From Nitrososphaerota archaeon (lineage in GTDB: Archaea > Thermoproteota > Nitrososphaeria > Conexivisphaerales > DTJL01), in the NCBI GenBank assembly GCA_021324115.1, contig JAJPJS010000025.1, positions 1 through 64,000 on the forward strand: 64,000 bases of DNA, read 5' to 3'. Below, piece after piece: positions 4,744 to 35,133 of this stretch. The stretch's first letter is position 1, and each line of letters starts with the position of its first letter. The notes below the pieces were generated by a model. The model worked only from the letters and a program-made list of their open reading frames with translations, had not been told where the DNA came from and searched no databases. The position numbers and the translations under genes were made by a program.

Positions 4744-4749
4744 GTCTTT

Positions 4750-5751: not shown

Positions 5752-5768
5752 GCGAATATTCAGCTCGT

Positions 5769-7880: not shown

Positions 7881-8135
7881 TAGGATGACACCTCAGTGCC
7901 CCGGTCTTCAGCTGGTCCCAGGCCGATCGTAACTTTTTGATGGAAGGCTGCGAATCCCTTAAGCCCTTTTTCGAAGCACGGCCATTGGTACGATGTTGTC
8001 GTGGATTCATTCTGGTTCAAACAGGTCATTCTCTACAGCCCGTTACTTGGGAGTCAAATATACTTTGGCAATTGCACGAAGGAAACAAAGGCTGCGACGA
8101 CGTGTTTGTATATACGTCAGACAGGTAGGTTGCTC

Positions 8136-8894: not shown

Positions 8895-8937
8895 CCCCTA
8901 GTATTATACTTAAAACTGTCTCCGTCCTCGGTGGTTG

Positions 8938-9252: not shown

Positions 9253-9270
9253 CGGTGTACCCGGTTCATT

Positions 9271-10485: not shown

Positions 10486-10641
10486 CCGCGTGCTCAGCCA
10501 GCGTCAACAGGGTCCCCTTATCAACCTATTCAACAATCAATAACAATCCCGGAATGCGGACAGACCCACCTTCCGGTAAGAAAGGTTTGGATCAAAAACA
10601 AGGTCTATGATAAGAAATACTGCGACCGAGTAGGTTCTTGT

Positions 10642-12810
10642 CTACCTGTAGTAGGGCACTGGCGCCTTCTCTATCAGCTTGCCTTCCCTTGACGCCCTGA
10701 CCTTCTTGACTGCATCGTCCAGGTATTGCATGGAAATCGCCGATTCGGCCACATGCTTCTTTGCGTCTTCTGGGTCCGGATACTTGCTCAGGAAGTCCTG
10801 CAGCACGAGCGACACTGCCGTGTTGATCACCGACGCCAGGTCCGCTCCGCTGAATCCATCCGTTGCATCCGCGATCTTGTCGAAGTTGACATCGGCTGCC
10901 AGTGGCTTCCCGGCAGAGTGAATCTTCAGTATCAGCAGTCTTGCGGCGCGGTCCGGCAGCGGTACATAGATCAGTTTGTCAAACCGTCCAGCTCTCAGAA
11001 GGGCAGGGTCCACCATGTCTATTCTGTTCGTGGCTGCAAGTACCACAACCCCTGTTAATGGCTGTATCCCATCAAGCTCCGTAAGAAGCTGGCTTACCAC
11101 CCTCTCGGTTACCATGCTGTCGGAGCTCACGCCCCTGACAGGTGCCAGGGCATCTATCTCATCGAAGAATATAATGCATGGGGATGCCTGCCTTGCCTTC
11201 CTGAACACCTCTCTTACCGCCTTCTCAGACTCTCCAACCCACTTGCTCAGAAGCTCTGGACCACGGACGCTTATGAAATTGGCTGAGCTCTCGGTTGCGA
11301 CAGCCTTAGCCAGCATTGTCTTGCCCGTCCCTGAAGGACCGTAGAGAAGTACCCCCTTGGGAATGTTGTATCCGAGCCTCTTGTACGCTTCCGGATACTT
11401 CATCGGCCATTCGACCGCTTCCTGGAGTTCCTTCTTCACCTGATCCAGCCCTCCTATCTCTGTCCATCTCACCTCTGGGGTTTCGAGGTAAACCTCCCTC
11501 ATCGCGGATGGTGTAATCTCCCTGAGCGCCTCTTCAAAGTCTGACATGGATACCTGAAGCTTGTTCAAAGTCTCTGGCGGAATCTTCTCTTCATCCAACT
11601 TTATTTCAGGGAGGTTTCTCCGTAGCGTCTTCATGGCTGCCTCCTTGCAGAGGTACTCGAGGTCCGCCCCGACATACCCGTGAGTCACCGTGGAGAGCCT
11701 CTCTACGTCGACATCGCTTGTAAGGGGCATGTGTCTGGTGTGGATCTGAAGGATTTCGAGTCTTCCCCTCTTGTCCGGAACCTTGATTTCAATCTCCCTG
11801 TCGAACCTGCCCGGTCTCCTGAGTGCGGGGTCTATCGCATTGGGTCTGTTGGTTGCTGCAATCACCACCACCTTCCCTCTTCCCTCGAGTCCGTCCATTA
11901 AGGAAAGCAGCTGAGAGACGACCCTCCGTTCCACTTCACCCGTCACTTCCTCCCGTTTGGGAGCAATGGAGTCTATTTCATCTATGAAGATGATAGTTGG
12001 AGATTTCTCCTTGGCCTCCTTGAATATCTCCCTCAACCTTGCCTCGGATTCACCATAGAATTTGCTCATTATTTCGGGTCCGCTTATGCTTATGAAATGT
12101 GCATTCGTCTCATTGGCGACGGCTTTGGCGAGCAGAGTCTTGCCTGTGCCAGGTGGGCCGTACAGGAGCACACCCTTCGGTGCTTCTATTCCCAGCCTTT
12201 CGAACAGCTCTGGGTGTCGAAGCGGCAGCTCCACCATTTCTCTTATCTTCTGGATTTCGTCCTTCAGACCACCTATGTCTTCATAGGTGACCTGCGGTAC
12301 ACCACGCAGAAGCTCGCCTTTTTCGGATAGCTGAAAAACGGTACGCTGACTTATTATGGCCGCTTCAGAACTCGGTGTAAGTCCAACGACCTGAAAAGTC
12401 AGCCTGCCCCCGAAGTAGGGAACCATTATGTTGTCCCCCCTTGTTACGGGAACCCCTTCGAGCGCATCAGTAATGTACCTCTCATCTATAGGTGGTATAT
12501 TTTCAAGAGGAGCGACAACCACCTTCTCGGCGGGGACGGCCTTGATCTTCCTCACAGCCACGGTGTCCCCTATTGCCACACCCGAATTGTTTCTCGTCAA
12601 TCCATCAATCCTGATTATGCCTCTTCCTTCGTCGGATGGATAAAGCGGCAGGCACTTGGCCACCGTCTTTCTCTTCCCTCTGACTTCGAGCACATCTCCT
12701 GTCGATGCGCCGAGGGAATCCATGACATCATAGTCAACACGGGCTACGCCCCTGCCGACATCTCTAGTGTAAGCTTCCAGCACCTTAAGGTTCACGCTTT
12801 CTGCACTCAT
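10642..12810 (-). CDS. VAT/Cdc48-type AAA+ ATPase
   Basis: A 722-residue double-ring unfoldase with an N-terminal substrate domain (about 1-185) and two AAA+ modules. D1 has GPPGTGKT and [11 protein letters not shown]2 has GPSGTGKT and [10 protein letters not shown], both intact. The C-terminus ends in Tyr-Tyr-Arg, a hydrophobic-Tyr-X tail of the kind that docks on the 20S proteasome, so a proteasome partner role is a fair inference. It begins 11 bp after hsp20 on the same strand, giving an hsp20-vat unit that is probably heat-induced. Confidence 0.97.
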
Positions 12811-12821
12811 TTGGGATTCAC

Positions 12822-13322
12822 CTACTCAACCGGTATTCCCTTATAGCCTTTATTGCCCTTCCCCTTCAATTTTGCACGCACCTCGAGTATTCCGTTGAGG
12901 TACCTGGCCTTGCAAGTGTCCGGGTCAATCGGCTCCTTGAGTGGAATCGTTGTCTTATATACCCTGTCTCCGGCCTGCGCCTTCAGAGACATTTCCTCAT
13001 CATTGGCTTCGATGTTTATCGATTCTTTCGAAACTCCTGGCATCTCTGCTATCACAACGAGGTAGTCATCCTTTACTGACTGCTCTACGAGCGGTTCTCT
13101 GTCCTTTCTTTTGATGTCCAGGTCTCCGAATGTCCTGAAAACCGGTCTTCCGCCCTGCATGTCAAGGGTAAATCCCTTGACAAAGGGCCTGTTCATCATG
13201 GCTTCCCTATCCTTTCTGAAGCTGGCCATTATCCGTTCGATCTCCTTTTCAACCTCCTCTAGGAGGTCATCAATACCTTCGAACATGTCACGTTCTTCGA
13301 AGTCATCATCATCATCAACCAT
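12822..13322 (-). CDS. hsp20: Small heat-shock protein (Hsp20/alpha-crystallin)
   Basis: A 166-residue small heat-shock chaperone. The alpha-crystallin domain (about 80-160) includes the strand [19 protein letters not shown] and the A-x-x-x-n-G-I/L-x-V-type end [12 protein letters not shown]; an IPVE tail resembles the IXI/V oligomerisation motif. The N-terminal arm is acidic ([14 protein letters not shown]). It starts at ATG 13322 and is followed after 11 bp by vat. The region upstream holds a TATA box and an imperfect palindrome shared with a divergent ArsR-like regulator. Confidence 0.93.
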
Positions 13323-13324
13323 TT

Positions 13325-13347
13325 GTTATCAACCAATGGTTACTAAC
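13325..13347. promoter_or_regulatory. Imperfect palindrome between hsp20 and its divergent regulator
   Basis: Half-sites GTTATCAACC (13325-13334) and GGTTACTAAC (13338-13347) form a 10-bp inverted repeat with two mismatches around a 3-bp spacer. A shared TATA-like TTTATTTAAA lies at 13354-13363. For hsp20 the palindrome falls between TATA and start codon, over the expected transcription start; for the regulator it lies just upstream of TATA. This placement fits repression by the divergent HTH protein. Confidence 0.6.
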
Positions 13348-13383
13348 CTAAGGTTTATTTAAACGTTTTTCCAGAATCAGGGC

Positions 13384-13803
13384 ATGGACGAACTTCTGGA
13401 AATTGTAGGTTCAGATTCCAGATGGAAAATACTGAAGTCGTTGATCGAGGGACCTAAGGATCTCAGGGAGCTTTCCACGGAACTCGGCATGAGTGTTCAG
13501 GGTACTATGAAACATATTGCGCTCCTTGAAAAGTCAGGACTCGTCAAAGTTTCGGCGGGGAAGGACAGGAGACAAAAGTATGCATTAGTGGGTGGTGTGT
13601 GGATTCAGCGGGAATCGGATGAGCAGCATGAGCTGATATTCTTCTTTTCTTCGAATCGGGTTAACCAGGAATCGATTTCATCGACACCCGTTAGCTTCAG
13701 GGTTCATCGACTTCTGAAAAGGTGTACGAACTATCTTCTCAAAAAGGGGGCTGCTGATTTCCCACAGCACCGGTCTGCGCGGCCGAGCCCTGCGGGGAGT
13801 TGA
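13384..13803 (+). CDS. ArsR-like winged-helix regulator, Phr-like candidate
   Basis: A 139-residue protein with an N-terminal winged helix (SDSRWKILKSLIEGPKDLRELSTEL..SVQGTMKHIALLEKSGLVKV, residues about 9-58) and a C-terminal half of unknown role. It is divergent from the hsp20-vat unit with 61 bp between. The arrangement recalls Phr of Pyrococcus, which represses hsp20 and an AAA+ ATPase gene; equivalence here is inferred from position and fold. TATA at 13354-13363 would place transcription start at the ATG. The 3' end overlaps the convergent MIP18 gene by 65 bp. Confidence 0.75.
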   Translation: MDELLEIVGSDSRWKILKSLIEGPKDLRELSTELGMSVQGTMKHIALLEKSGLVKVSAGKDRRQKYALVGGVWIQRESDEQHELIFFFSSNRVNQESISSTPVSFRVHRLLKRCTNYLLKKGAADFPQHRSARPSPAGS

Positions 13804-14092
13804 TATTCTGGTTGATTATGTCAGCCATGTAGTGGTCCTTTATCTTCACCTGAACCTCCTTGACCCCTTCGACCTCCATTATCGACCTCTTGACATCCTC
13901 TGCAATCTGATACGCGAACATGGCGGGGCATACAGGGGTGGTCATCCTGACCTCAGTGTACACCCTGCCATCGTCACTTATGTCAAGCTTTTCCACAAGA
14001 TTAAGTTCAACTATGGGCACGCCGATCTCGGGGTCCACAACATAGTTGAGCTTTGTCCAGATCTCGTCCGTCATCTTTTCCTTGTCGAGCAT
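13739..14092 (-). CDS. MIP18/DUF59 family Fe-S assembly protein (SufT-like)
   Basis: A protein of about 117 residues from ATG 14092. The DUF59 core is clear: LNYVVDPEIGVPIVELNLV, then MTTPVCPAMFAYQIAEDV with the family cysteine, and VEGVKEVQVKI. Relatives take part in Fe-S cluster assembly or delivery. The frame is open to 14224, but a TTATTTATG element about 25 bp before 14092 argues for the internal start. The C-terminal tail is Gln/Ala/Pro-rich (NSPQGSAAQTGAVGNQQPPF). It converges with the ArsR-like gene and is divergent from alaX. Confidence 0.85.
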   Translation of the reverse strand: MLDKEKMTDEIWTKLNYVVDPEIGVPIVELNLVEKLDISDDGRVYTEVRMTTPVCPAMFAYQIAEDVKRSIMEVEGVKEVQVKIKDHYMADIINQNINSPQGSAAQTGAVGNQQPPF

Positions 14093-14201
14093 CACGAATT
14101 TGCCACGGTGGTACATAAATAATCTTTCCCTAAATACCCAACGGAGTCGAGTGAAATAAGGACATGAGGAGATCAACTGGTGAATCGGAGGGGTTGTCAG
14201 A

Positions 14202-14927
14202 ATGACCGAACTCCTTTTTCTCAAGGATAGCTACCTGAAAAAGTTCGATGCCAAGGTAGTAAAGGTACAAGGAAGCATCGCCTACCTCGACAAAACAGCA
14301 TTTTATCCAAGGGGTGGCGGGCAACCCTGTGATACAGGTGAACTGATTCAGAACGGAAGGAGCAACAGGGTACTGGAAGTATTCTGGGAGGAAGGGGATG
14401 TTGCGCACAGACTGGAGCAGCCCATTTCGGACGGAGCAGAGATATCGGGCCAAATAGACTGGGGCCTGAGGTATGCACACATGCGACACCATACCGCCGT
14501 TCACATACTTTCAGGCGTCATGTTCAGGGATTATTCCGCTCCAATTACAGGAGGTCAGATTTATCCCGACAGGGCAAGAGTTGACTTCGATGTCGATGAG
14601 GTGGGGGACGAACGGGTCAGGGAAATAGAATCAAAATGTAACCAGATAGTGGATGAGGGAAGAGCCGTCACGGCGAGGATGGTTCCAAGGAGCGTGGCTC
14701 TCGAAATGCCTGAACTCGTGAGAACGAAAACGGGCAGGAAACTTATAGAGCAGCTTCCTCAGGTCAGGCTGGTCGAAATAGAGGGTTTCGACGTACAAAC
14801 GGATGGAGGAACGCATGTGGTCAACACTAGAGAGGTGGGCCATATCAAAATCAAAGGAGTGGAAAACAAGGGAAAGCACAACAAAAGATTCGAACTAGTT
14901 CTTCCCCCATCAGGAGAAAGTGTCTGA
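14202..14927 (+). CDS. alaX: AlaX-type alanyl-tRNA editing protein
   Basis: A 241-residue free-standing editing domain that would hydrolyse Ser- or Gly-tRNA(Ala). The N-terminal FYPRGGGQPCDTG and the zinc motif HHTAVHIL (about residues 96-103) are intact. The second zinc motif reads DGGTHVVNTREVG, with Asp where the common form has Cys (CGGTH), so one usual metal ligand differs. Length fits the AlaX-M class. It is divergently placed from the MIP18 gene across about 110 bp. Confidence 0.88.
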   Translation: MTELLFLKDSYLKKFDAKVVKVQGSIAYLDKTAFYPRGGGQPCDTGELIQNGRSNRVLEVFWEEGDVAHRLEQPISDGAEISGQIDWGLRYAHMRHHTAVHILSGVMFRDYSAPITGGQIYPDRARVDFDVDEVGDERVREIESKCNQIVDEGRAVTARMVPRSVALEMPELVRTKTGRKLIEQLPQVRLVEIEGFDVQTDGGTHVVNTREVGHIKIKGVENKGKHNKRFELVLPPSGESV

Positions 14928-14999
14928 AATCCTAGATTATCTCTGTCAGAGGGTATATAATATACGGGGAACCGAATCAACGGAAAGGAGTAACTCGAG

Positions 15000-16910
15000 T
15001 TGTCCGGAATGAAGGCTTCCGAGGTGGACCTTGGGATAATGTGCGACAGGATAAACTCGATAATTTTATTTCTGGATGGTGAATTCAGGATCATCCGTTC
15101 GAATACTTACGCCCTGCAGTTGCTTGGAAGGAGCTCGGAGGGCCTCCTGGGCAACTCCCTGCTCGACCTCCTTCCGGATCGCGACAAGATGAGGGCAAAG
15201 GATATTTTCACACGGGCGCTGGGCGGTGAATCGTTCAGCTCAGTGCTCCTCTCGGTGAGGACCAACAAGGGAGCCGAGAGGCTGATAAGCTGGCAGGTCG
15301 AACTGCTTCCAACTCCGAGTACATCACTCTTTTGCTTCGGGCAGGACATAACTGAGAACGAAACACTCGAACGTGACCTTATGGCCGCGAACGACAAACT
15401 CGCCTCAGTTCTGGATAACAGTACATTCGCTATTCTTACGATCGACCAGGACCTGTCGATCGACTATGTTAACAGGAGGGGACTTCAGGCAACCGAATAC
15501 ACGAAGGAGGAACTGACCGGCAAGCACATCTCCGAGGTGTTCATAGGCCTCAATACGAGTGAACTTGGTGGCTTCATGTCAACGATATACAGAGGTGCAA
15601 CCTTCGGGCCGGCCGAAGCGAAACTCAAAACCAAGAGCGGAGTTCTCATTCCGTATGAGTTGACGGTGGACCCGATAAGCGTTCAGGGTACGATCGTTGG
15701 CGCCGTGGTGACAGCCAGCGACATATCTCAAAGAAAGAGGGCTGAAGAAAGAATCAGGTTTCAGGCTGCCATGCTGGATCAGGTCGAAAGTGCAGTCGTA
15801 GCAGAGTCACTCCTCGGCGAAGTCATCTACTGGAACATCGCAGCCGAGAAACTGTTCGGCTGGAAATCCACGGAGGTTCTGGGAAGAAACCTCATAGAAG
15901 TGATAAGGCCTTCTCCTCTGGGAGGCACTCCGGTTCCATCGCTGGAAGCGATAAAGCAGATGGGGGCATGGAACGGCGATGTGGATCTTGAGCGGAGGGA
16001 TGGGATCAGGTTTCCTGCCCGAATTTCAATGGCCGAAATAATGGGAAGGGAGGACAGACCCATAGCAGTTGCGATGGTGGTGGTCGACCTTACGGAAAGG
16101 CTTCACCTTGAAGAGCAGCTGAGAAGCTTCAACGAGCAGCTCACCAAACTCGTCGACCAGCGGACGAGGCAACTCGAAATCTCTCAGGAAAGACTAGTCA
16201 AGGCGGAAAGGCTTGCGGCCATAGGAGAACTTTCCGCCCAGGTGGGGCATGACCTCAGGAATCCGCTCACCAGCATAAATACAGCCCTATACCTTCTCGA
16301 CAAGACCCTCAACGGCGAATCCCCGGAGGAGGCACGCATGGCCATCCAAACGATGAAGAGATCTGTGGACCATGCAAACAGGATAATAGAGGAGCTCCTC
16401 GAGTATTCAAGGGGAGGGATAGCCGAAACAAAGGCGGAGCACCTGAGGGCACTCATTCAGGCTTCCATAGAAAGGCTGAAGGTGCCAAAGAACATACAGA
16501 TCGAGAACGAGGTGCCGAAGGACCTTCTTGCAGACGTCGACGGCTCAAGGATGCAGAGGGTTTTTGAAAACCTGATCAAGAACTCAATCGATGCGATGCC
16601 CAAGGGAGGAAGCATCGTCATTAAGGGAGGGGCTGGGGAATCCACTGCCTGGCTTTCATTTTCTGATACCGGACAGGGAATCAAGAAGAAGGACGCCATC
16701 AATCTTTTCAAGCCTCTTTTTACCACAAAACCACAGGGGATGGGACTGGGACTGCCTATATGCAAGAGAATCGTTGAGGCGCATGGCGGATCGATATCAA
16801 TAAACAGCAAGTACGGCAGGGGAACGATAGTTACGATAGAGCTTCCTGCAATCAGGGTCAAGAAGCCCAAGGGTGAGCTTCTGGATGTCGGTCTTAACAG
16901 TCAGGGCTGA
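15000..16910 (+). CDS. Cytosolic PAS-domain sensor histidine kinase
   Basis: A 636-residue kinase with no membrane segment or signal peptide. Three PAS-like domains follow each other (about 14-115, 131-245, 255-375), then a short coiled coil, a HisKA domain with the H-box ELSAQVGHDLRNPLTS (His about residue 416), and an HATPase with N-box ENLIKNSIDAMP, FSDTGQGI and GMGLGLPI. It should autophosphorylate in response to an intracellular cue. No response regulator is adjacent, so it is an orphan here. The start is TTG 15000 or ATG 15009. TldD follows on the same strand after 73 bp. Confidence 0.93.
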   Translation: MSGMKASEVDLGIMCDRINSIILFLDGEFRIIRSNTYALQLLGRSSEGLLGNSLLDLLPDRDKMRAKDIFTRALGGESFSSVLLSVRTNKGAERLISWQVELLPTPSTSLFCFGQDITENETLERDLMAANDKLASVLDNSTFAILTIDQDLSIDYVNRRGLQATEYTKEELTGKHISEVFIGLNTSELGGFMSTIYRGATFGPAEAKLKTKSGVLIPYELTVDPISVQGTIVGAVVTASDISQRKRAEERIRFQAAMLDQVESAVVAESLLGEVIYWNIAAEKLFGWKSTEVLGRNLIEVIRPSPLGGTPVPSLEAIKQMGAWNGDVDLERRDGIRFPARISMAEIMGREDRPIAVAMVVVDLTERLHLEEQLRSFNEQLTKLVDQRTRQLEISQERLVKAERLAAIGELSAQVGHDLRNPLTSINTALYLLDKTLNGESPEEARMAIQTMKRSVDHANRIIEELLEYSRGGIAETKAEHLRALIQASIERLKVPKNIQIENEVPKDLLADVDGSRMQRVFENLIKNSIDAMPKGGSIVIKGGAGESTAWLSFSDTGQGIKKKDAINLFKPLFTTKPQGMGLGLPICKRIVEAHGGSISINSKYGRGTIVTIELPAIRVKKPKGELLDVGLNSQG

Positions 16911-16983
16911 CATGATATCTTCTCCTTTCAACCTCCACTTTTTTCAGAATAGGATATAATCCCCCACAGCAACAGCTTGACCC

Positions 16984-18420
16984 ATGCCGACACTGGATAA
17001 GGATATGGCGGATTACGCAGTGGCCGAGGCCATCAGGGCCGGGGCTGACTACGCAGAGGCGCGGCTCCAGTGGAACATGGAGCAGAATGCGTCCACGAAG
17101 AATGGTGAATTCGAGCCGCCTGGTTATGAGGAGACATTCGGGATCGGCGTAAGAGTCATGCATAGGGGGGCCATGGGGTTTGGCGCCACAAATATCCTGA
17201 CACGTGACAGCGTCAAGGAGCTGGCCACGAATCTGGCAAAGAAGGTTATATCAGCCGGACCCGGATTCAGAAACAAAATCAGGATGAGTGACGAAGATAC
17301 ACATATCGCGAAATGGGGAGCTGCGGAGAAAAGGAAGCTGGAGGATGTTGAACTCTCCACACTTGTGACCACTCTGAAGGAGATTGATTCCGACATGGTT
17401 TCCAGACACTCTCCGGACGTTCTGAAGTTCAGGCTTTTCGGACTGGGGTTATCACTGGAAGAGAAATACTTTACAAATTCAAACGGCTCAAAGATTGAAA
17501 GCCGTGTTCCCAGGGTGGGAATAATGGGGGTGCTGACCGCCGCAGATTCGGGCTCCGTCGTCCAGAGGTTCATCCAGTCGGCCGGAACAGGCGGCTGGGA
17601 GGTTTTTGAAACTGCAAAAATGAAGGAGAGAATGAGAGATGAGGCAGATACCGTGGTGAAGATAGCCGGAAAGGCGGAGAAGTTTACAGGTGGGAGCATG
17701 GATGTCATTGTCGGTCCCGAGGTCACGGGCATAATGACGCACGAATCTGTGGGTCATCCCCAGGAAGCCGACAGGATACTGGGAAGGGAAGGCGCTCAGG
17801 CAGGCGAGTCTTACCTGACCTCATCCGACATTGGGATGCAGGTGGGGAGCCCACTCGCAACTGTGATCGACGACCCCACGATTCCGGGAACGGACGGCTA
17901 TTACCTGTACGATGATGAAGGGGTTCCGGCAAGAAAAAGGATTCTGATCAAGGAGGGGAGGATAAACGAATTTCTGCAGAACAGGGAAACTGCAGACGTC
18001 TTCGGTGTGAAGAGCAATTCCGCTGCCAGAGCCGCCTATTACAACGTGGAGCCTATAATAAGAATGTCAAACACCTACGTGGAACCCGGCGATCACTCAC
18101 TGGATGAGATGATAAAAGAAGTAAAGGATGGGGTGTTGATCAAGAATTTTATGGAATGGAACATTGACGACAAGAGGTACAATTCAAGGTTCGTGGGCCA
18201 TGAAGCCTATCGCATTCAGGGTGGAGAAATAAAGGGTCTGGTGAGGAATCCGGTCCTGGAGTTGACCACCCCGAAGCTGTGGGGCAGCGTCGCGGCCAAG
18301 ACGAAGGATCTGATATTCGACGCAGCAACCTGCGGAAAGGGGGACCCGAGTCAGGGGATACCTGTGGGGCACGGAGGACCATATATGCTGCTCAAGGGAG
18401 TGAGCCTCAGCGGAAGGTGA
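16984..18420 (+). CDS. tldD: TldD-type metalloprotease subunit
   Basis: A 478-residue TldD homologue. The zinc-binding HESVGHPQEADRI (about 255) is the catalytic HExxxH helix, and the C-terminal DAATCGKGDPSQGIPVGHGGP is the conserved metal-ligand loop. TldD pairs with TldE/PmbA in a heterodimer that trims unfolded or modified peptides. A TATA-like GGATATAATC (about 16950-16959) lies about 25 bp before the ATG. The tldE gene begins 6 bp after this stop. Confidence 0.95.
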   Translation: MPTLDKDMADYAVAEAIRAGADYAEARLQWNMEQNASTKNGEFEPPGYEETFGIGVRVMHRGAMGFGATNILTRDSVKELATNLAKKVISAGPGFRNKIRMSDEDTHIAKWGAAEKRKLEDVELSTLVTTLKEIDSDMVSRHSPDVLKFRLFGLGLSLEEKYFTNSNGSKIESRVPRVGIMGVLTAADSGSVVQRFIQSAGTGGWEVFETAKMKERMRDEADTVVKIAGKAEKFTGGSMDVIVGPEVTGIMTHESVGHPQEADRILGREGAQAGESYLTSSDIGMQVGSPLATVIDDPTIPGTDGYYLYDDEGVPARKRILIKEGRINEFLQNRETADVFGVKSNSAARAAYYNVEPIIRMSNTYVEPGDHSLDEMIKEVKDGVLIKNFMEWNIDDKRYNSRFVGHEAYRIQGGEIKGLVRNPVLELTTPKLWGSVAAKTKDLIFDAATCGKGDPSQGIPVGHGGPYMLLKGVSLSGR

Positions 18421-27860: not shown

Positions 27861-27873
27861 GGAGGAGGGGATG
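27861..27873. other. Left attachment-site repeat of the element
   Basis: GGAGGAGGGGATG, identical to the 3' end of tRNA-Cys at 35060-35072 and in the same orientation. It lies 2 bp after the HAD gene stop. The flanking sequence differs from the tRNA beyond these 13 bp. Confidence 0.75.
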
Positions 27874-28136
27874 ACTTAAACGCATTGGTGTTGTGATGAG
27901 TTACGCCTTTTCAGTCCGCGTTTAGCTTTGACCGGCCGGAATCTGGTGGCAACACCGAGCGGTGTACCATTACCCCCCATGCTCGGGGAATATAGTTTGT
28001 ACCATGCCTGTTAACATTAAAATTAGGAGAACCCTGGACAGGCTGGATAGGACGGACAGAATTTATGATCAGAAAAACAGCCGGCGCCCCTGTCTTACCG
28101 TTCACTTTTAGCCCGAAACTTACATGGTTGATGAAA

Positions 28137-28295
28137 TTAACGGCGAAGTTTGGTTCCATTCAGAGTTTGAGAGCCGAGTGTCCATCCAAACCTCTTGTAG
28201 ACTGCCTTGACATGCTTCAAAAGCTCTTCATAAGACATGACGTCTGACCCCTTCGAGTCGTTTCTCTCTTTCCTCTTTGCGTGCCTTGGCGACAT
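28137..28295 (-). CDS. Small basic hypothetical protein of the element
   Basis: A 52-residue protein from ATG 28295 (MSPRHAKRKERNDSKGSDVM and on), with a very basic N-terminus and a helical segment YEELLKHVKAVYKRFGW. A TATA-like CTATATAAGT on this strand (about 28318-28328) would start transcription close to the ATG. The divergent excisionase-like gene starts only 18 bp away, so the promoters overlap. It may be a DNA-binding regulator; no family recognised. Confidence 0.45.
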   Translation of the reverse strand: MSPRHAKRKERNDSKGSDVMSYEELLKHVKAVYKRFGWTLGSQTLNGTKLRR

Positions 28296-28312
28296 ATTGC
28301 TTTTAGTTATCA

Positions 28313-28486
28313 ATGAGTGACTTATATAGGTTATTGACAGTAAAACAGGCCGCACAGTGGCTTCAGGTCAACGAGGAGACCGTATGGAGATGGATCCGCA
28401 AGGGCAAGATGAAGGCTGTGAGGCTCCCCTCAGGGAGACTGAGAATCGAGGAGAGTGAAATAAGGAGGATGATTCCAAACGAATAA
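28313..28486 (+). CDS. Excisionase/MerR-type helix-turn-helix protein
   Basis: A 57-residue protein: LLTVKQAAQWLQVNEETVWR, then WIRKGKMKAVRLPSGRLRI and a short end. This is the compact HTH_17/excisionase fold, with the AAxxLxVxxxTVxRWIRxGxxxAxRxxxGxxRI pattern. In integrated elements such proteins bind attachment sites or the integrase promoter. It is divergent from a small basic gene 18 bp away and sits near the left end, opposite the integrase at the right end. It probably helps excision or controls the element's promoters. Confidence 0.8.
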   Translation: MSDLYRLLTVKQAAQWLQVNEETVWRWIRKGKMKAVRLPSGRLRIEESEIRRMIPNE

Positions 28487-28558
28487 AGTAATCATCGAAG
28501 CCATCATCTGGTCTGGGGTTCTGGTGCTTCTTCTGTTTCTTCTTCTGGTGGTCTTGGG

Positions 28559-28753
28559 TTGAAGTTCTATCAGGCGGCCGAGAAGGAGCTCAGGCCAGGC
28601 AGGCAGGTCCACCTGGTCACAAGGGCAGCAACGTACAGGGGAAAGGTTGAGCGCGTTGAAGAGGACTTCATCGTGATCAACAAGAGGGGGGCCAGGCTGT
28701 TTCTGAGTGATCAGATTGAGCTCATCGGATTCATCCTGGAGCCAGAAAAGTGA
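28559..28753 (+). CDS. Sm-like (LSm) fold candidate, 64 residues
   Basis: A 64-residue protein starting at TTG 28559. The pattern GRQVHLVTRAATYRGKVERV, then EEDFIVINKRGARLFLSDQI and ELIGFIL resembles the five-strand Sm1/Sm2 barrel of LSm proteins (V.L..R....G.V..V..DFI.I...G...FL.D.IELI). Homology is inferred from pattern only. A preceding open frame with a hydrophobic stretch ends at TGA 28560-28562, overlapping this start. A poly-T run (28763-28768) follows the gene. Confidence 0.5.
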   Translation: MKFYQAAEKELRPGRQVHLVTRAATYRGKVERVEEDFIVINKRGARLFLSDQIELIGFILEPEK

Positions 28754-28773
28754 ATTTCCCGCTTTTTTCTCAT

Positions 28774-28920
28774 GTGAAGTGCCTTTGCAGGCAGTGTTTT
28801 TCCGAGTTTGAAGAGTGGGTATGCATTCATGGGAGCCTACAAATTTGGTATTGTCGGGAATGTCTATATCAGGATTCCCAGACATGCATACTGAAGAGCG
28901 CTCTCGCTGAAACGAATTAA
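28774..28920 (+). CDS. 48-residue zinc-finger miniprotein
   Basis: From GTG 28774: MKCLCRQCFSEFEEW, VCIHGSLQIWYCRECLYQD and a short tail, 48 residues. Cys at 3, 5, 8, 17, 27, 30 and 38 plus His 19 can make one or two zinc sites; the CRQC and CREC pairs look like a zinc ribbon. The T-rich TTTCCCGCTTTTTTC just upstream may be the terminator of the previous gene. No family recognised; a nucleic-acid or protein-binding role is likely for such an element-borne finger. Confidence 0.6.
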   Translation: MKCLCRQCFSEFEEWVCIHGSLQIWYCRECLYQDSQTCILKSALAETN

Positions 28921-28950
28921 ATGATGTACCGTCAAGGTGTTCCTGTCTGT

Positions 28951-29451
28951 CTATTCTCTGCCGCCACCGCCCCAGCCAATCAGGATTACGATGACCAGGC
29001 CAAGGATTGCCAGAAGAGGAACCAGAATCAACAGTCCAAACAGACTATTGATCTGAGTGAAGAATGAATTGAGTTGCTGAGCAACCTGTGGACTTGAATT
29101 CGTAAGTGACTGATTCAGTCCACCCGATGTGTTGTACACACCGACGAAGTAGCCCCAGGCAAGGAATACAGTGATGATGACCATGATCACTACGAAGGCG
29201 CCAACGACGGCAGGTACAATCGCCACCGCACGTCGTTTCTGTCCCTTTGTCCACAGTGAGCTGATCAGAGTCATTCTTTCAGCATTCTTCGCCTGGAATT
29301 CCTCGATGAAGAGAGCGAAGGCCGAATAGGCTCGGCTCACTTCGTTGACTGACTTGATGAACATTGAAGCAAGGACAGCCATGACTACCTTGGCATTCGT
29401 CATCCCGATGACCGAGAAAATGGCGGGATTGATGCTTCTTTGGGAATACAT
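28951..29451 (-). CDS. Membrane protein of the element, 166 residues
   Basis: A protein with two strong membrane helices (about 76-104 and 138-160), a shorter hydrophobic segment near 20-32, and a Ser/Asn/Gln-rich loop NTSGGLNQSLTNSSPQVAQQ between the strong helices that is probably extracellular. The C-terminus is Gly-rich (GWGGGGRE). A TATA-like CTTTTATCC (about 29457-29465) is so close to 29451 that the true start may be the internal Met at 29403. It may be an envelope or conjugation-type component, or an exclusion protein; not recognised. Confidence 0.6.
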   Translation of the reverse strand: MYSQRSINPAIFSVIGMTNAKVVMAVLASMFIKSVNEVSRAYSAFALFIEEFQAKNAERMTLISSLWTKGQKRRAVAIVPAVVGAFVVIMVIITVFLAWGYFVGVYNTSGGLNQSLTNSSPQVAQQLNSFFTQINSLFGLLILVPLLAILGLVIVILIGWGGGGRE

Positions 29452-29549
29452 CGAAGGATAAAAGCGGGGAGTATCAGCGTCAGAACAAATTCCTCGATTC
29501 GTAGGGCCAACAAGGCGCCAGTCAAGAAACCTTAATTTTATGTCAATTC

Positions 29550-29738
29550 ATGTCACGTGTTGTGAATATAGACCTTTCTGTGGCCTCTTTAAGCATAGGG
29601 CTCGTCATGGTTATGTGGGGGTTCGATAAAATGCATATCTTCGACAAACATCCGCGTTGGGGAAAATGTATTGGGCTAATTTATCTTCTTGTGGGGGTAT
29701 TTTGGATATTTATCACTGTCCTCATATTGCTCATTTAG
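29550..29738 (+). CDS. Two-helix membrane miniprotein
   Basis: A 62-residue protein with two membrane helices (about 11-26 and 39-61) joined by a basic hinge FDKMHIFDKHPRWGK. It is divergent from the 166-residue membrane protein. Archaeal viruses and plasmids often carry such proteins, but there is no specific match. Confidence 0.5.
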   Translation: MSRVVNIDLSVASLSIGLVMVMWGFDKMHIFDKHPRWGKCIGLIYLLVGVFWIFITVLILLI

Positions 29739-29849
29739 AACATCGACCAAAAAGTTAGTAGAACCTGAACGTCGTCTCAACGGTTCTAACGCATTAAATA
29801 TCATGCAGGGCCCTCCTCCCTTCTCTTTTGCTTATCGCTTTTTATTCTC

Positions 29850-30218
29850 GTGAAGTGCCCTGTTTGCGGCGTCGAATACGAAGCATTTCAGGATGCTGTC
29901 CTTGAGCGGTGCTTTGTGTGCGGGCATGACATCTATGAGGATATGAAACCACCAAGGTGCAAGATTGAGGACTTTATCGAAAAGATGATCTCCACCGGGT
30001 ACAAACGGATCAATTCAAAGCTCGTGAAGCGGTACATCCTCCTCGAATCAAGGAAAACCCATGCGTGCCACATCAAGAAATGGGGCAAAGTCCCCTGGCT
30101 GATCGGACAGACGCTTCAACGCCTTGCCAGTGAAGCAAGGTTAGTCCTGCTCGAAGAGGATTATTCAGTTTCGCACAGGAACGTCTATGTCATCCCTTCG
30201 ATCAGCCGGGAATTATAG
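29850..30218 (+). CDS. Zinc-ribbon protein of the element, 122 residues
   Basis: From GTG 29850. An N-terminal zinc ribbon (CPVCGVEYEAF, then CFVCGHDIY; Cys pairs at about 3/6 and 21/24) is followed by a helical domain with PPRCKIEDFIEKMISTGYKRINSKLVKRYILLESR and a C-terminal basic part. The second half resembles a winged helix but is not a confident match. It is followed by a 420-bp non-coding stretch and then the large AAA+ gene. Confidence 0.6.
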   Translation: MKCPVCGVEYEAFQDAVLERCFVCGHDIYEDMKPPRCKIEDFIEKMISTGYKRINSKLVKRYILLESRKTHACHIKKWGKVPWLIGQTLQRLASEARLVLLEEDYSVSHRNVYVIPSISREL

Positions 30219-30638
30219 CTGCCCACTATAAAAACGGGCCCCGAAGGTCCACGCCGCCCCCTCCACTTTTCCCGCTCTTTGACGTGTTTCATTGTTTCAT
30301 CTTGCTAATCGACTACTGAATAAATGACAGAACGAAAACACCGACCGTACCACAAACTGTCATCAAAAAGAGCCATGAGGATGCTACACTTCTGCGTTTA
30401 AACGGAACACCGAGACGCATGAATCAGAACCATGAAACGAAAGATGTAACGGTGAAACAGCAGGGGCACTGAAAATAAAATGCATTTTCAGAAGCCTGAA
30501 ATGAAAAACATCAGTTTGTTCTTGCATACTTCAAAAATCGTTGAGGAGTATGCCGGTTTTGGTCGTTAAATCTCTTGGTTAATGTAGAAATCCCCAACCG
30601 GCTCCTCTTTTAGGTATGAAAATAAAAACGAACAACAC
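30219..30638. other. Non-coding stretch upstream of the element's AAA+ gene; possible origin region
   Basis: No gene seen. Structures present: GTTTCATTGTTTCAT (30286-30300); a perfect 8-bp inverted repeat CTGAAAAT/ATTTTCAG (30469-30476 and 30484-30491); an imperfect inverted repeat with arms GAGGAG..CCGGTT..GG (30543-30562) and CCAACCGGCTCCTC (30594-30607), loop of about 31 nt, ending 31 bp before the AAA+ start; and A-rich runs between. This is what a replication origin or strong operator region would look like, without proof of either. Confidence 0.45.
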
Positions 30639-32486
30639 ATGGAGGTCGTCGCCCTGACCTCGGAAAGTAAAAGCGGGATTGTCGGGCAACCGCTGACAGA
30701 GCTTCTCGATTTCGACGAACTAACTGTCAAGGCAGATCGAGACCTTCTCGCTCAGCTAAACATTGTAGCCTTCTCTGCATATACCCTTTCACCATTAAAC
30801 GCAAGACTGGTAGATCTGCCGGGAACCGGCAAAACCTACGCAATCGTAGAGGCATTGAAAAAATTTCCGGATGGTGATGTAATCTACATGTCATATGCTT
30901 CGCCCACTGCATTTTTCCATGAAGTAGGCGAAGCCCTCGCACCAGATGGGAGCCCTCTTGCAGATGCTATTGAGGAACTTTACGAGGAATTGAACGAAGC
31001 AAAAAGAAGTAAAAACCTCACAAGAGCAAGGGAAATCAAAGAACAAATTAAGGAAATGAAAAGAAATAGTTACATCCTGCTCGACCTGTCTAACAAAATT
31101 CTGGTATTTCTTGATGTGAAGGGGTTTCAGTTATTTGAGAATTTGAAGGATAAGCTTAGTCATGATAAGTGGGAAACCGAGGTAAGGATCACAGACAAAG
31201 AATTGAACGTCCCTCACCTGAGGATTCGGGGGTGGCCATGCGTAATTGTCGCCTCAGCAGCCACTGACCTGGAGATGAGGAGGCAATTTGAGGAGCTCAC
31301 GCAACGATTTTTGGACTTAAACGTTACAGTCGGGAAGGACAAATATCTGCAAGCGAACAAAGTCTCCGCCGACAGGCGAGGATTGCCGCCGGAAATCTTT
31401 GATGACCTGTACAATCAGAAGCAACTCAACTATGTCAAGGGCCTCGTTGAAGAAATAAAAGCTGACATCCTTAGGATAAGGCAGAACCTTCTGTGGAAAG
31501 GATACAAGCCAGACGGCGGAAGAAGCCTTGTTTACAACCCCTACCGTCAAGAACTGGCCACCTTATTCACACTGGATACCCCGGAGACTATGCGGTATTT
31601 CAATCAATTTTTGGAATTTGCTTCGGTCATTACCCTGGTAAATCAAAATGAGAGGGAATTTGTACAGGTCGGCCCGGACCCCTATGCGAGATATCCGGTT
31701 GTCAGCATAGAGGACCTGGAACTCGCATCAAAGCTCTTGCAATCACACCTCACGGTAAAACTCACTAAACGGGCGAGGGCCTGCTTTCAGCAGGTGGTCA
31801 TTCCAGCGTGGAAAATTATGAAGGAGGCGACACCAAAACAATCAAAGATACAGGATGGGAACGAAAAAGGAACTATTTCCGAGCCCGAGTTAACACCGAC
31901 GGATTGCTTAAAATATTTCAAGGAACACAGGGAGAAAATAACAGACCTACCGTCTCTTTCAAAATCTCATCTGACTGAGTATCTTCAAGCGATGGAAGCA
32001 AGGGGTCTAATCACGCTTTCGAGCTCTCAGATTGACAGACGACAGACAGTGATCACGGTTATAACGGATAAGATAGAGGAATTAGTTCCAAAGGATATCA
32101 TCGGAACTAAACGGGAACAAATTTTGGAGGCTGCACGAAACGACCAGGCCAATTTGGCAAAATTAGTTCCAGTTTTGCCGGTTTTTACAGATAGAAATGC
32201 AGCTCACAATAGTGATAATAGTGTAAAAGGGGGTAAAACTGGAACTAATTTCCAACTAAATGAAACAAATAGTTCCGAAATAGTTCCGAAAAGTTCCATT
32301 GGAACTAACAGGCAAACAGGCCAGGAGACTAAGCATACTGATGACAGGTCAGGGCCCAAGTCCGAGGATGAAGAACCTCTTCCATATCGCTGCGAAGAGC
32401 ACCACCTTGAAACCGATTCCTTTGCTGTCTTCAATCTGCACCTGAACCAATTCCACAGACAGGCCGGAATAGAGAAGGAGGCATAG
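30639..32486 (+). CDS. AAA+ ATPase with winged helix and C-terminal zinc finger; putative replication protein
   Basis: A 615-residue protein, the largest of the element. The Walker A motif is DLPGTGKTYAI (about residues 59-69), a Walker B-like strand KILVFLD follows a charged helical insertion at about 147-153, and VIVASAATD (about 200) looks like sensor 1. A winged-helix-like region (about 425-475, SKSHLTEYLQAMEARGLITL) precedes a low-complexity linker and a C2H2-type finger CEEHHL..FAVFNLHLNQFH near the end. ATPase plus winged helix suggests a replication initiator or helicase; family not identified. DNA coding the linker holds repeated TAGTTCC motifs. Confidence 0.7.
   Translation: MEVVALTSESKSGIVGQPLTELLDFDELTVKADRDLLAQLNIVAFSAYTLSPLNARLVDLPGTGKTYAIVEALKKFPDGDVIYMSYASPTAFFHEVGEALAPDGSPLADAIEELYEELNEAKRSKNLTRAREIKEQIKEMKRNSYILLDLSNKILVFLDVKGFQLFENLKDKLSHDKWETEVRITDKELNVPHLRIRGWPCVIVASAATDLEMRRQFEELTQRFLDLNVTVGKDKYLQANKVSADRRGLPPEIFDDLYNQKQLNYVKGLVEEIKADILRIRQNLLWKGYKPDGGRSLVYNPYRQELATLFTLDTPETMRYFNQFLEFASVITLVNQNEREFVQVGPDPYARYPVVSIEDLELASKLLQSHLTVKLTKRARACFQQVVIPAWKIMKEATPKQSKIQDGNEKGTISEPELTPTDCLKYFKEHREKITDLPSLSKSHLTEYLQAMEARGLITLSSSQIDRRQTVITVITDKIEELVPKDIIGTKREQILEAARNDQANLAKLVPVLPVFTDRNAAHNSDNSVKGGKTGTNFQLNETNSSEIVPKSSIGTNRQTGQETKHTDDRSGPKSEDEEPLPYRCEEHHLETDSFAVFNLHLNQFHRQAGIEKEA
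31869..32308. repeat. Iteron-like TAGTTCC/GGAACTA cluster inside the AAA+ gene
   Basis: Forward TAGTTCC at 32083, 32164, 32270 and 32281 with a variant AAGTTCC at 32291; reverse GGAACTA at 31869, 32103, 32241 and 32301. The last part is tightly spaced: starts at 32270, 32281 and 32291 are 11 and 10 bp apart (one helical turn), and AGTTCC-ATT-GGAACT is a perfect palindrome. The protein segment encoded here is low-complexity, so the DNA is free to carry a second signal. Confidence 0.65.
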
Positions 32487-32488
32487 CG

Positions 32489-32575
32489 TTGATCGTAGAG
32501 ATCCATGCCGAAGATCAGCTGGAGGATGGAATGCAGCATTTCCTGTGCGACGACTGCTGGGGGACAAAAATATGA
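32489..32575 (+). CDS. 28-residue miniprotein coupled between two element genes
   Basis: TTG 32489 starts 2 bp after the AAA+ stop; the frame encodes MIVEIHAEDQLEDGMQHFLC and then DDCWGTKI, and its TGA overlaps the next ATG (ATGA at 32572-32575). An LCDDCW pair could bind metal together with a partner. The exact fit between two coupled genes argues for translation, though a short leader that only passes ribosomes on is possible. Confidence 0.45.
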   Translation: MIVEIHAEDQLEDGMQHFLCDDCWGTKI

Positions 32576-32793
32576 CTCTTCAACTGACTTGGTGGGGTAA
32601 GGATCCCCCAGGTGTCAAAGTCGCCAAGTGCGATGTATGCGGTGCCCCGTCAGCACACTGCCAGCCTCTTGTCTTTGTTCAGACCAGGAACACCATCGTG
32701 ATCTACTGGTTGTGCTGGCGATGTCTTAGGGCGCAGTCGGAAGCATTGCTCGAAGCCGAGAGACGGCGGTCATTTGGGGAGGACCTAAAATGA
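32572..32793 (+). CDS. Zinc-binding protein of the element, 73 residues
   Basis: From ATG 32572: MTLQLTWWGKDPPGVKV, then CDVCGAPSAHC, an aromatic strand and LCWRCLRAQ, then a charged helix. Cys pairs at about 20/23 and 53/56 make a zinc ribbon-type site. It overlaps its upstream miniprotein and its downstream neighbour by ATGA, so it belongs to a coupled operon following the AAA+ gene. Function unknown. Confidence 0.6.
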   Translation: MTLQLTWWGKDPPGVKVAKCDVCGAPSAHCQPLVFVQTRNTIVIYWLCWRCLRAQSEALLEAERRRSFGEDLK

Positions 32794-33497
32794 CAGCAGA
32801 GACCCTTTTGACGCCGGAGAACCATGGTTCCCCAGCAACAAAATATCCCCGTCTGGCAGGCCGGACCCAGGGCGCAGTGTTCAGGTGGATCTACCACCAT
32901 CCGGATTCGACGCTTAAGGAGGCAGCAAAGGCCCTCGGAATCACTCATAACTCTGCGAAGCTGGCAATATCCAGACTCCGCCGGAGACCAGAGTTTCAGC
33001 ACCTCTGTCCTGAATGTCTGCATTTCTCTTTGTTTGAGTGCTGCCATAACTGCGGCTTTGAGCCCGGTTTCGATTCGCTTGGAATGGAGGGTCCTTCATT
33101 CATCTTCTCAACCATCGCAGAAGCCCGTTATCGGCTTCAATCAAATGGCGGACTTGGCAGTGATGTTGATTATTCCAGTCTGAGGCCGAAGTATGGAGCC
33201 AGAAACCTGCAGCATCTTGTGGACCATGGCCCTGAAGCCGACCGGACACTTGAGGACCTGAAGAGTTCTTTGTGGGAAGAATTGAAAGGTGAAATGTTAT
33301 CTGACAACTTGACAGACCTCGCCGCCCGAATACTTGAGGCTGAGCTCAACCGCATCCGGTTCTATTATCCTGAAGTTTTGAGGATGAAAGACTTCAAGCA
33401 CATGATGATCCGTGCCGTCCGGCAGCGAATGAGACAGCTGGCCGGTGTCAGAGTGTCCTTGTCTCCACCACAAACTTCAAAGGAGGTGATAACATAA
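32790..33497 (+). CDS. HTH plus zinc-ribbon protein of the element, 235 residues
   Basis: An N-terminal helix-turn-helix (STLKEAAKALGITHNSAKLAISRL, about residues 39-63) is followed at once by a zinc ribbon LCPECLHFSLFECCHNCGFE (about 71-91), then a linker and an all-helical C-terminal region (about 145-225). The order of DNA-binding and zinc-ribbon units recalls archaeal general factors, but the helical part lacks clear cyclin repeats, so it is not called a TFB. It probably regulates or helps replicate the element. Coupled by ATGA to the gene before it; the Hfq-like gene starts directly after its stop. Confidence 0.6.
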   Translation: MTAETLLTPENHGSPATKYPRLAGRTQGAVFRWIYHHPDSTLKEAAKALGITHNSAKLAISRLRRRPEFQHLCPECLHFSLFECCHNCGFEPGFDSLGMEGPSFIFSTIAEARYRLQSNGGLGSDVDYSSLRPKYGARNLQHLVDHGPEADRTLEDLKSSLWEELKGEMLSDNLTDLAARILEAELNRIRFYYPEVLRMKDFKHMMIRAVRQRMRQLAGVRVSLSPPQTSKEVIT

Positions 33498-33767
33498 ATG
33501 AAGAATGACCCGTTAAACCGTGACTTCAATTCGCTGAAGGCAGCGCTGGAGGGTAAGCAGCCAGTTAAACAGCAGCAGAAGCAGCCAAGGGAGCTCCTCC
33601 CTTCATGGACCGGCAGACAGGTCCAGCTGAAGATGCGGGATGGAACCTTGATAACAGGGCTGCTTCAATCAGTTTCAAACTATGAGGCACTTATCCAGAC
33701 GAATGAGGGGCACGCCCTTGTGATGAAGCATGCGATTGACGAAATCAAGGAGGTGGGCGGTGAATGA
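33498..33767 (+). CDS. Hfq/LSm-like protein of the element
   Basis: An 89-residue protein. After a Gln/Lys-rich N-terminal arm (KQQQKQPREL) the core reads WTGRQVQLKMRDGTLITGLL, then QSVSNYEALIQTNEGHALVM and KHAIDEIKEV. The spacing of the dG.l.G.l..vs.yE strand and the C-terminal v.KHAI..I strand is that of Sm1 and Sm2; KHAI is a hallmark of bacterial Hfq Sm2. Sm proteins form RNA-binding rings. It starts immediately after the HTH-zinc protein and overlaps the next small gene by ATGA. Homology is pattern-based. Confidence 0.6.
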   Translation: MKNDPLNRDFNSLKAALEGKQPVKQQQKQPRELLPSWTGRQVQLKMRDGTLITGLLQSVSNYEALIQTNEGHALVMKHAIDEIKEVGGE

Positions 33768-33913
33768 AAGGAAAGGAAACAAACGACGGGACTATCGAAG
33801 TCCGCAGGAGCGAGCTCGAGCAGCTTCTCGAGGAAGTCAGGGCTCTGATGAAGGCGTATTCTGTGAGAGAAGCCTCTCCAAGGTCGCTTCAATCTTCTCA
33901 AGCCTCTGCCTGA
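33764..33913 (+). CDS. 49-residue coiled-coil miniprotein overlapping the integrase 3' end
   Basis: ATG 33764 overlaps the stop of the Hfq-like gene (ATGA). The product, MKGKETNDGTIEVRRSELEQ and on for 49 residues, has a short heptad-like helix SELEQLLEEVRALMKAYSV and a Ser-rich tail. Its last 77 bp are antisense to the end of the integrase gene. Translational coupling supports that it is real. Function unknown; a partner or oligomerisation peptide is possible. Confidence 0.5.
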   Translation: MKGKETNDGTIEVRRSELEQLLEEVRALMKAYSVREASPRSLQSSQASA

Positions 33914-35021
33914 TTTCATCTTCTACCTGAATCGCCACCTGCCTGTCAAGTATGAGACCGCATTTTTCGCACCTTGGTGAAGCGGGACCATTTCTGAAAC
34001 CACACCTCGGACATTCACGCAGCCGCATGGTCTTTGTTTCGGGCTCTTCGTCCGACTTTGCCAGCCCGTGTATCTGGAGGATGTTCTGATCAAGGTCCCG
34101 TCCTGACCAGTGAACGTATCTGCGGGACATCCGAGAGCCAAGGGTCCAGCCAGCAAACAGCTCCAGCTTCGATTCTGTCAGTTTGTCAGCCATGTTTGTC
34201 AATTGAGAGTGACGAAACAGGTAAGGCCATGCGTCCTTCGACAGCCCTGCGGACTTGGCGATATTCTTGATCAGCAGCCTGAAATGATTGTATGAGAGAA
34301 GTCGTCCTCTGTGTCCTGTATCCAGGGCACACCAAAGGGGCGCGTTCATGTCTGACTTCATTGGATGTTCATTCAGCCACCTGAGCAGCGGCCGGTATGA
34401 AGCAACGAGGGGAATCCGCTTCTGCCCCGTTTTGCCTCTCGTGGAGATCACGCAGTAGTTATCCAGGAATTGGACAGATCCAACGGTCATGTTCAGCATT
34501 TCGCCGGGCCGGAATCCGCCTTCATACAGAACAGAAATCAGGGCTTCGTCTCTCGGCGTCCTTGCGGACTTTAACATTTTGATAACATCTTCTGCATTCA
34601 GAAGCCTGTCAGAGGTCACCCTGGCCTCTTTCGATGCCTTCGACTCGGAGAAGTTGATTCTTATCCACGCAACCTCAGGAGGGAAGGGTGTATCACGTGA
34701 AGTATTCCCATATTTGAGAAACTGAAACAGCTTCCTGGTCACAAGGCGGTAGGCGGCCTTCGTCGGTTCTCTCAAAGGTGACGAATTTATCGAAGCAATG
34801 AATGAGACGATATCCTCTTTCGTGGCCTTTGAAACGTCAAGGCTGGAAAGAATCTTCGGAAGGCAGTTTGCGTACTTGATCACCCCAAGGTTCGACAATC
34901 CTTTGGCCTGCAGGTGTTCCAGGAATCTGACACCCAGGTCTCCGTTGGGATACCCCAGCAGTCTGTTCCTATGCCAGGCAAGCGTCCTGTCCGTGTTGTA
35001 TATGTCCCTGAACGACGTCAT
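33837..35021 (-). CDS. int: Tyrosine recombinase (integrase) with C-terminal zinc ribbon
   Basis: A 394-residue site-specific recombinase. A SAM-like core-binding domain (about 25-120) precedes a catalytic domain with Arg in GGFRPGEML, Lys in TRGKTGQKRI, YLFRHSQLT with the second Arg and His, and the Tyr nucleophile in SRRYVHWSG. The position of the usual first His of the HxxR box is Tyr. The C-terminal extension has a zinc ribbon CPRCGFRNGP..CEKCGLIL and a coiled coil. The gene is unsplit and reads away from tRNA-Cys 41 bp away, whose 3' end is the target site. Confidence 0.92.
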   Translation of the reverse strand: MTSFRDIYNTDRTLAWHRNRLLGYPNGDLGVRFLEHLQAKGLSNLGVIKYANCLPKILSSLDVSKATKEDIVSFIASINSSPLREPTKAAYRLVTRKLFQFLKYGNTSRDTPFPPEVAWIRINFSESKASKEARVTSDRLLNAEDVIKMLKSARTPRDEALISVLYEGGFRPGEMLNMTVGSVQFLDNYCVISTRGKTGQKRIPLVASYRPLLRWLNEHPMKSDMNAPLWCALDTGHRGRLLSYNHFRLLIKNIAKSAGLSKDAWPYLFRHSQLTNMADKLTESKLELFAGWTLGSRMSRRYVHWSGRDLDQNILQIHGLAKSDEEPETKTMRLRECPRCGFRNGPASPRCEKCGLILDRQVAIQVEDEIRQRLEKIEATLERLLSQNTPSSEP

Positions 35022-35059
35022 TCTGTCTTTTAAAAGCAGAGTTTAGCACCCGAACATTA

Positions 35060-35072
35060 GGAGGAGGGGATG
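35060..35072. other. Right attachment-site repeat in the tRNA-Cys 3' end
   Basis: GGAGGAGGGGATG, the partner of 27861-27873. On the tRNA strand it covers the last three bases of the T-stem, the acceptor 3' strand, the discriminator and two flanking bases, so integration rebuilt an intact tRNA. Confidence 0.75.
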
Positions 35073-35133
35073 GGATTTGAACCCATGTATACTCGCTCTG
35101 CAGGCGAGCTCGTAACCGCTCCGACACCCCTCC
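35062..35133 (-). tRNA. tRNA-Cys (GCA)
   Basis: On the minus strand a full cloverleaf folds: acceptor GGAGGGG/CCCCTCC, anticodon stem CTCGC/GCGAG around loop CTGCAGA with anticodon GCA, T-arm ATGGG-TTCAAAT-CCCAT. The discriminator is U73, the identity base of tRNA-Cys. CCA is not encoded and there is no intron. No clear TATA box lies upstream, and the dehydrogenase gene on the same strand ends 12 bp before it, so it may be co-transcribed. Its 3' end is the integration site of the element. Confidence 0.93.

Follow-up and report, generated by a model that had tools for sequence, protein, structure and literature searches.

How a 7.2-kb block of genes came to lie at the 3′ end of a tRNA-Cys gene in a Nitrososphaerota archaeon, and how such a block might be maintained, is the question raised by positions 27861–35072 of the 64-kb window analysed here (positions 1–64,000 of contig JAJPJS010000025.1, assembly GCA_021324115.1). 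Our analysis indicates that the block is probably an integrative plasmid-like element with an iteron origin nested in its own replication gene, rep.

The boundaries of the element are marked by a 13-bp sequence, GGAGGAGGGGATG, which is present in exactly two copies in the window, at 27861–27873 (distal copy; exact repeat and shuffle test) and at 35060–35072. The latter is the proximal attachment site, within the 3′ end of the tRNA-Cys(GCA) gene (35060–35133, minus strand; Rfam extent 35062–35133), and by the tRNA coordinates the repeat spans the 3′ side of the acceptor stem together with the discriminator and neighbouring bases. This target gene stays intact. Whole-window shuffles gave an expectation of 0.02 matches to the repeat. 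When the 3′ half of tRNA-Cys with a few flanking bases was used as the query against the neighbouring 8 kb, a match of at least 13 bp arose in 3 of 2,000 shuffles drawn from a second-order Markov model (0.15 %), whilst control 8-kb pieces from elsewhere in the window had longest matches of 9–10 bp, or 15 bp if another tRNA-like gene lay inside. The original prediction had named both copies of the repeat and judged a chance match very unlikely, and these counts agree with it on both points. A separate tRNA-like gene reported by ARAGORN at 61567–61664 (minus strand) displays an odd four-base anticodon and has a 15-bp T-arm stretch in common with tRNA-Cys; it is possibly an intron-containing tRNA.

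Comparison with genomes of the same family revealed an unoccupied site. In one of these (G001) the two host genes that flank the element are adjacent, in the order HAD-like gene, approximately 150 bp, tRNA-Cys (L032:10214–10285, minus strand) and 6PGDH-like gene, and this empty site is embedded in a longer run of conserved gene order. Four proteins of the element described below, namely Rep, a 122-aa zinc-ribbon protein, a helix-turn-helix (HTH)-zinc-ribbon protein and an Hfq-like protein, had no match in any of the three other family genomes (G001–G003). In G002 and G003, different and unrelated genes stand between tRNA-Cys and the gene with a metallo-hydrolase fold. The genes at the tRNA-Cys 3′ flank in two same-family genomes encode an 844-aa surface-type protein (L033 11709–14243) and small proteins of 226 and 115 aa (L034 1680–3100), indicating that the insertion spot is variable. 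The empty site rules out a core-genome explanation for the block and is the strongest evidence in favour of the original prediction; together with the family-wide gene absence, it supports an integrated element targeting the tRNA-Cys 3′ end.

The integration machinery lies at the two ends of the element, as had been predicted. A tyrosine integrase of 394 aa, with a C-terminal zinc ribbon (CxxC...CxxC) and coiled coil, is encoded by an intact open reading frame (ORF) at 33837–35021 on the minus strand, starting 38 bp from tRNA-Cys. Domain scanning and catalytic-residue alignment showed that the R..K..YxxR..W..Y set is kept (R171, K197, Y267xxR270, W292 and Y302), and all of these residues except Y267 are invariant in 14 relatives. 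The pNOB8-type signature R...YxxR...Y is present (R171, Y267-x-x-R270, Y302) and the ORF is unsplit, resembling pNOB8-type integrases, which carry the YxxR signature and whose gene is not split upon integration (PMC8371274); the likeness is one of signature, and the zinc ribbon and coiled coil set the element integrase apart. A related integrase was found in 31 of the 61 genomes searched (the host's own and relatives). Among the loci fetched, 13 related integrases lie at most 140 bp from a tRNA 3′ end with the start codon toward the tRNA, and several others have no tRNA close by. At the opposite end of the element, 28313–28486 (plus strand) encodes a 57-aa protein of the HTH_17/excisionase family (Pfam HTH_17, 1e-12; PHROG excisionase, 8e-11; TIGR01764, 4.5e-10, above cut-off), a candidate recombination directionality factor. 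Attachment repeats sought at other loci gave weak candidates only, save for one 13-bp pair in L038. That locus (1–18144) carries two integrase-bearing elements, one at tRNA-Gly and one at tRNA-Ser, separated by approximately 10 kb; the tRNA-Ser element has a 13-bp candidate attachment (att) copy at 8016–8028 and a Prim-Pol/D5 replication protein.

The largest gene of the element (30639–32486, plus strand) encodes Rep, a 615-aa protein with no clear Pfam domain. Its AlphaFold2 model and homologues indicate an MCM-like AAA+ ATPase followed by a winged HTH, an unstructured linker and a C-terminal zinc-finger-like end. The model has a pLDDT (predicted local distance difference test) of 69.6, with residues 480–615 mostly below 50, and its best Foldseek matches were MCM helicases (E ~5e-8, prob 1.00, TM 0.3–0.4); the viral models that matched the fold were an SSV-type ATPase (SSVK1 A460) and DUF927/DUF3987/prim-pol phage replication proteins. 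None of 19 Rep-family members matched the MCM Pfam model, and Rep is therefore MCM-like by fold and not a member of the MCM family. Homologues are spread sporadically: 30 of 400 class genomes and 28 of 398 phylum genomes have one, and integrase genes occur in many of the same 10–20-kb stretches. In three homologues a Prim-Pol domain is fused to the N terminus (best E 8e-9), and these fusions mark Rep as a probable replication protein. Searching Rep against phages and plasmids by tblastn returned nothing, its relatives surfacing only in whole-genome searches.

Within the Rep ORF, the motif TAGTTCC/GGAACTA is repeated eight times in both orientations (31869–32307), forming an array of putative iterons. 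Counting either strand, the window holds nine copies of TAGTTCC, eight of them in this array, which is the densest cluster of any repeated 7-mer in the 64 kb. Seven of the eight in-gene copies fall at 32083–32307, corresponding to Rep residues ~482–556 in the linker that joins winged HTH to zinc finger, a segment that is unconserved and modelled as unstructured. The inverted-repeat score of the ORF (shared 8-mer inverted pairs in the best 300-bp window) was 25, a value reached in 0 of 100 ORF-wide and 0 of 300 local codon shuffles. The array thus exceeds coding expectation, and amino-acid repeats as the sole cause were rejected for those in-gene arrays that have inverted copies, as local codon shuffling did not reproduce these. 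The 420-bp gap before rep yielded no repeat array. We infer that the repeats may serve as binding sites for Rep and as a replication origin.

The same test, combining ORF-wide (100) and local (300) codon shuffles on inverted repeats, was applied to 37 rep ORFs, and nine passed strictly on both counts (the window, L038, L039, L078, L089, L092, L102, L103 and L111). The arrays of all nine are centred at 0.82–0.91 of the ORF. Among 185 control ORFs of 380–900 aa, eight passed nearly the same test (60 rather than 100 global shuffles); three of these (L041, L047 and L049) come from integrase-bearing elements, where they are large ORFs of the same anatomy, with arrays at 0.82–0.87. Their repeats are AGGACACTA in L041 (nine copies, four in tandem with 9-bp spacing), GTGATAA in L047 and CGGGCACAA in L049. 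The L041 and L049 ORFs show a distant likeness, and those of L036 and L047 share 69 % identity with diverged repeats; the L036 array is direct only and may therefore have a protein-level cause. The replication ORF of L038 is of the D5/DUF5906 type, that of L039 stands alone, and the MCM-like profile had no meaningful match to these ORFs, the best being 4 bits (E 0.004) within the linker. It was in L038, L039 and the window that the pattern was noticed first; L041, L047 and L049 were recognized post hoc. The more independent sample consists of the 15 rep ORFs (L102–L120) that were added afterwards from further genomes, of which L102, L103 and L111 passed strictly and L106 and L107 came near, the L106 array lying at 0.59. 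We regard it as evenly balanced whether a common design of integrating plasmids in Thermoproteota places the origin in the linker between the winged HTH and zinc finger of the helicase. Such a design would recur in helicases without detectable mutual sequence similarity (MCM-like, D5/DUF5906-type and two or more other groups), and the iterons would change between elements along with their own Rep. In L049, an ORF at 6066–7145 that encodes a tandem-repeat protein beside an integrase contains 105 direct 8-mer repeat pairs and no inverted ones.

The remaining genes of the element are small. Downstream of rep, a Cys-rich, zinc-ribbon-like protein of 82 aa (32545–32793, plus strand) is followed by a 235-aa HTH-zinc-ribbon protein (32790–33497, plus strand), whose gene is convergent with that of the integrase. 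Homologues of the latter adjoin related integrases in four other elements (L037, L038, L039 and L041), which makes the pair a recurrent module of these elements. A TFB-type factor was rejected as its identity, with only one homologue giving a weak TFIIB zinc-ribbon match and the fold model giving no significant match. Beside the integrase gene, 33498–33767 (plus strand) encodes an Hfq/LSm-like protein of 89 aa, the nearest solved relative of which is the archaeal Hfq-like MJ1435 (E 2e-7), and which had no relative among 199 other genomes of the class. Between the excisionase-like gene and rep lie a 64-aa protein with a TTG start that is perhaps SH3/LSm-like (28559–28753, plus strand; a very weak DUF2642 match under cut-off, E 0.018), an uncertain Cys-rich gene of 56 aa that overlaps its predecessor by 4 bp (28750–28920, plus strand), a 166-aa membrane protein with two strong hydrophobic segments and one weaker (28951–29451, minus strand; no significant relative within the order), an uncertain 62-aa gene with two hydrophobic segments (29550–29738, plus strand) and the 122-aa zinc-ribbon protein (29850–30218, plus strand), which had no match among the 199 class genomes. 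Pfam, PHROGs and NCBIfam scans of ten proteins identified no capsid, conjugation, casposase or transposase gene, the one sub-threshold match being to a virion-protein PHROG (0.0019), and the same scans gave no conjugation ATPase or VirB-type gene that would place the element among integrative-conjugative elements. A defence island was also discounted, since the sole PADLOC match was a generic HTH (mad1) and formed no system. The original prediction had recognized no known family beyond the integrase and HTH protein, a view revised here by the identification of the large gene as an MCM-like AAA+ replication helicase and of the integrase neighbour as an archaeal Hfq/LSm protein.

In the integrative-plasmid reading, the block was inserted when its tyrosine integrase recombined a circle with the tRNA-Cys 3′ end across the 13-bp identity, leaving the tRNA intact, as the anatomy and the G001 empty site show. 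The HTH_17 protein at the far end would shift the reaction toward excision, and the excised circle would be replicated by its own MCM-like Rep, to which fold, domain fusions and distribution point. The winged HTH and/or zinc finger of Rep may bind the inverted TAGTTCC iterons in the 3′ part of rep, and with the iterons inside the gene, initiator gene and origin would move together, an arrangement known from phage lambda O. More speculatively, the HTH-zinc-ribbon and Hfq-like proteins might regulate transcription or RNA of the element. As no transfer apparatus or capsid gene was recognized, spread would need transformation, vesicles or a helper. Several points weigh against this reading. The excised circle and its replication are predicted from sequence, and the empty site of G001 belongs to a genome of another genus rather than of the host's own species. 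Confidence in the Rep model is moderate (pLDDT 69.6, TM ~0.3–0.4), so that 'MCM-like' applies at the level of fold only. A strong in-gene array is present in only about a quarter of rep ORFs, and the others may have origins elsewhere or diverged iterons. Lastly, the repeats could have a role in partition, copy control or autoregulation. A rather unlikely version of the same element builds on this last point, with the repeats acting as a partition, incompatibility or autoregulatory operator and replication starting in the gap before rep or downstream of rep. The gap (30219–30638) is a long non-coding, AT-rich stretch immediately before rep that may contain its promoter region; in plasmid pRN1, where no iterons were found, a stem-loop that lies downstream of rep and outside the gene acts as the origin, which repeat-based searches missed and deletion located (PMC4234260); and detectable in-gene arrays are missing from many Rep homologues. 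However, it is rep and not the gap that holds an array, and the recurring position of such arrays across rep families points to something connected with initiator and origin.

Two further explanations concern the nature of the element itself. It appears improbable that the block is a defective or reduced provirus of pleomorphic or spindle-shaped type, in which the hydrophobic protein would be a structural remnant and the ATPase viral. The nearest integrases in the phage collection are those of the pleomorphic viruses GacPV1 (33 %) and ThalV2 (31 %) of Geoglobus and Archaeoglobus, the ATPase model matches SSVK1 A460, and the weak virion-protein match noted above belongs to the 166-aa membrane protein; yet that protein had no phage relative by tblastn, and 7.2 kb is small. 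A pleomorphic provirus as such was rejected, since scans with Pfam, PHROG and NCBIfam, set against the GacPV1 map, found neither the VP4-like fusion protein nor the rolling-circle Rep that GacPV1 carries. It is very improbable that the block is a stranded, immobile genomic island with genes taken over by the host. GC content and GC at third codon positions (GC3) are host-like for most of the genes, rep excepted, suggesting long residence or a similar donor, but rep is intact, as are the integrase, the excisionase-like gene and the two att copies, and rep and other element genes are absent from same-family genomes. This differs from the state of a second tyrosine integrase at 54258–55697 (minus strand), which is decayed, with several stops and fragments, and has an ATPase gene (52231–53484) and a further gene (53420–53914) nearby; that region is the remnant of another island.

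The favoured integrative plasmid-like element can be set beside several systems already described. In Thaumarchaeota, the cryptic integrated elements (CIE) catalogued by Krupovic et al. in 2019 have att sites mostly below 26 bp (minimum 8, median 17), with 39 of 68 in tRNA genes (PMC6563490). The element resembles them in its tyrosine integrase, short att, tRNA 3′ end target, small size, replication gene and lack of conjugation and capsid genes; it too shows tyrosine recombinase integration with direct repeats and is absent from the orthologous G001 site. It differs in that its host lineage is without AmoA, and the text of PMC6563490 does not cover its gene set or origins and iterons. As integrated DNA it is thus a further member of a described kind, and only the gene set is new. 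The suggestion of an undescribed group accordingly holds for the gene set, which as a whole had no counterpart among phage or plasmid records, but not for the kind, to which att length and tRNA target conform. Scans of a genome-contig collection and IMG/VR likewise gave nothing for the integrase, Rep or HTH-zinc-ribbon protein. The origin of phage lambda is internal to the O gene (PMC7466680), and the element would share with it initiator-binding iterons, here putative, inside the initiator's own coding sequence; its initiator is instead archaeal and helicase-type, its repeats lie near the end of the ORF rather than the middle and in both orientations, and their origin role is predicted from the sequence. 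Mobile-element primases are paired with interchangeable MCM-like, DUF927 and DUF3987 ATPases (PMC5862659). Such PrimPol-helicase proteins, including ORF904 of pRN1 (PMC4234260), have in common with the Rep family an ATPase and a winged HTH and, in some members, an N-terminal Prim-Pol, whereas Rep of the element lacks Prim-Pol and has a zinc-finger end. A full-text search of an open-access collection found no paper combining iterons and Thaumarchaeota.

What is new here is that in-gene repeat arrays recur at a corresponding position in replication genes from different families, a variant worth testing. Few origins are known for archaeal plasmids and integrated elements. If the array is the origin, selection would act on the same DNA in two roles, as binding sites and as the code for a protein linker, a simple sequence rule would locate origins in many uncultured archaeal elements, and candidate minimal replicons would become available for vector construction in a class that has few genetic tools. 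AmoA is present in genomes of the same class and was not found in the host (G000), the family-mate G001 or the order-mate G004, which places the host in the class of ammonia-oxidizing archaea but in a lineage without that trait. With this element the thaumarchaeal mobilome takes in a lineage other than the ammonia oxidizers.

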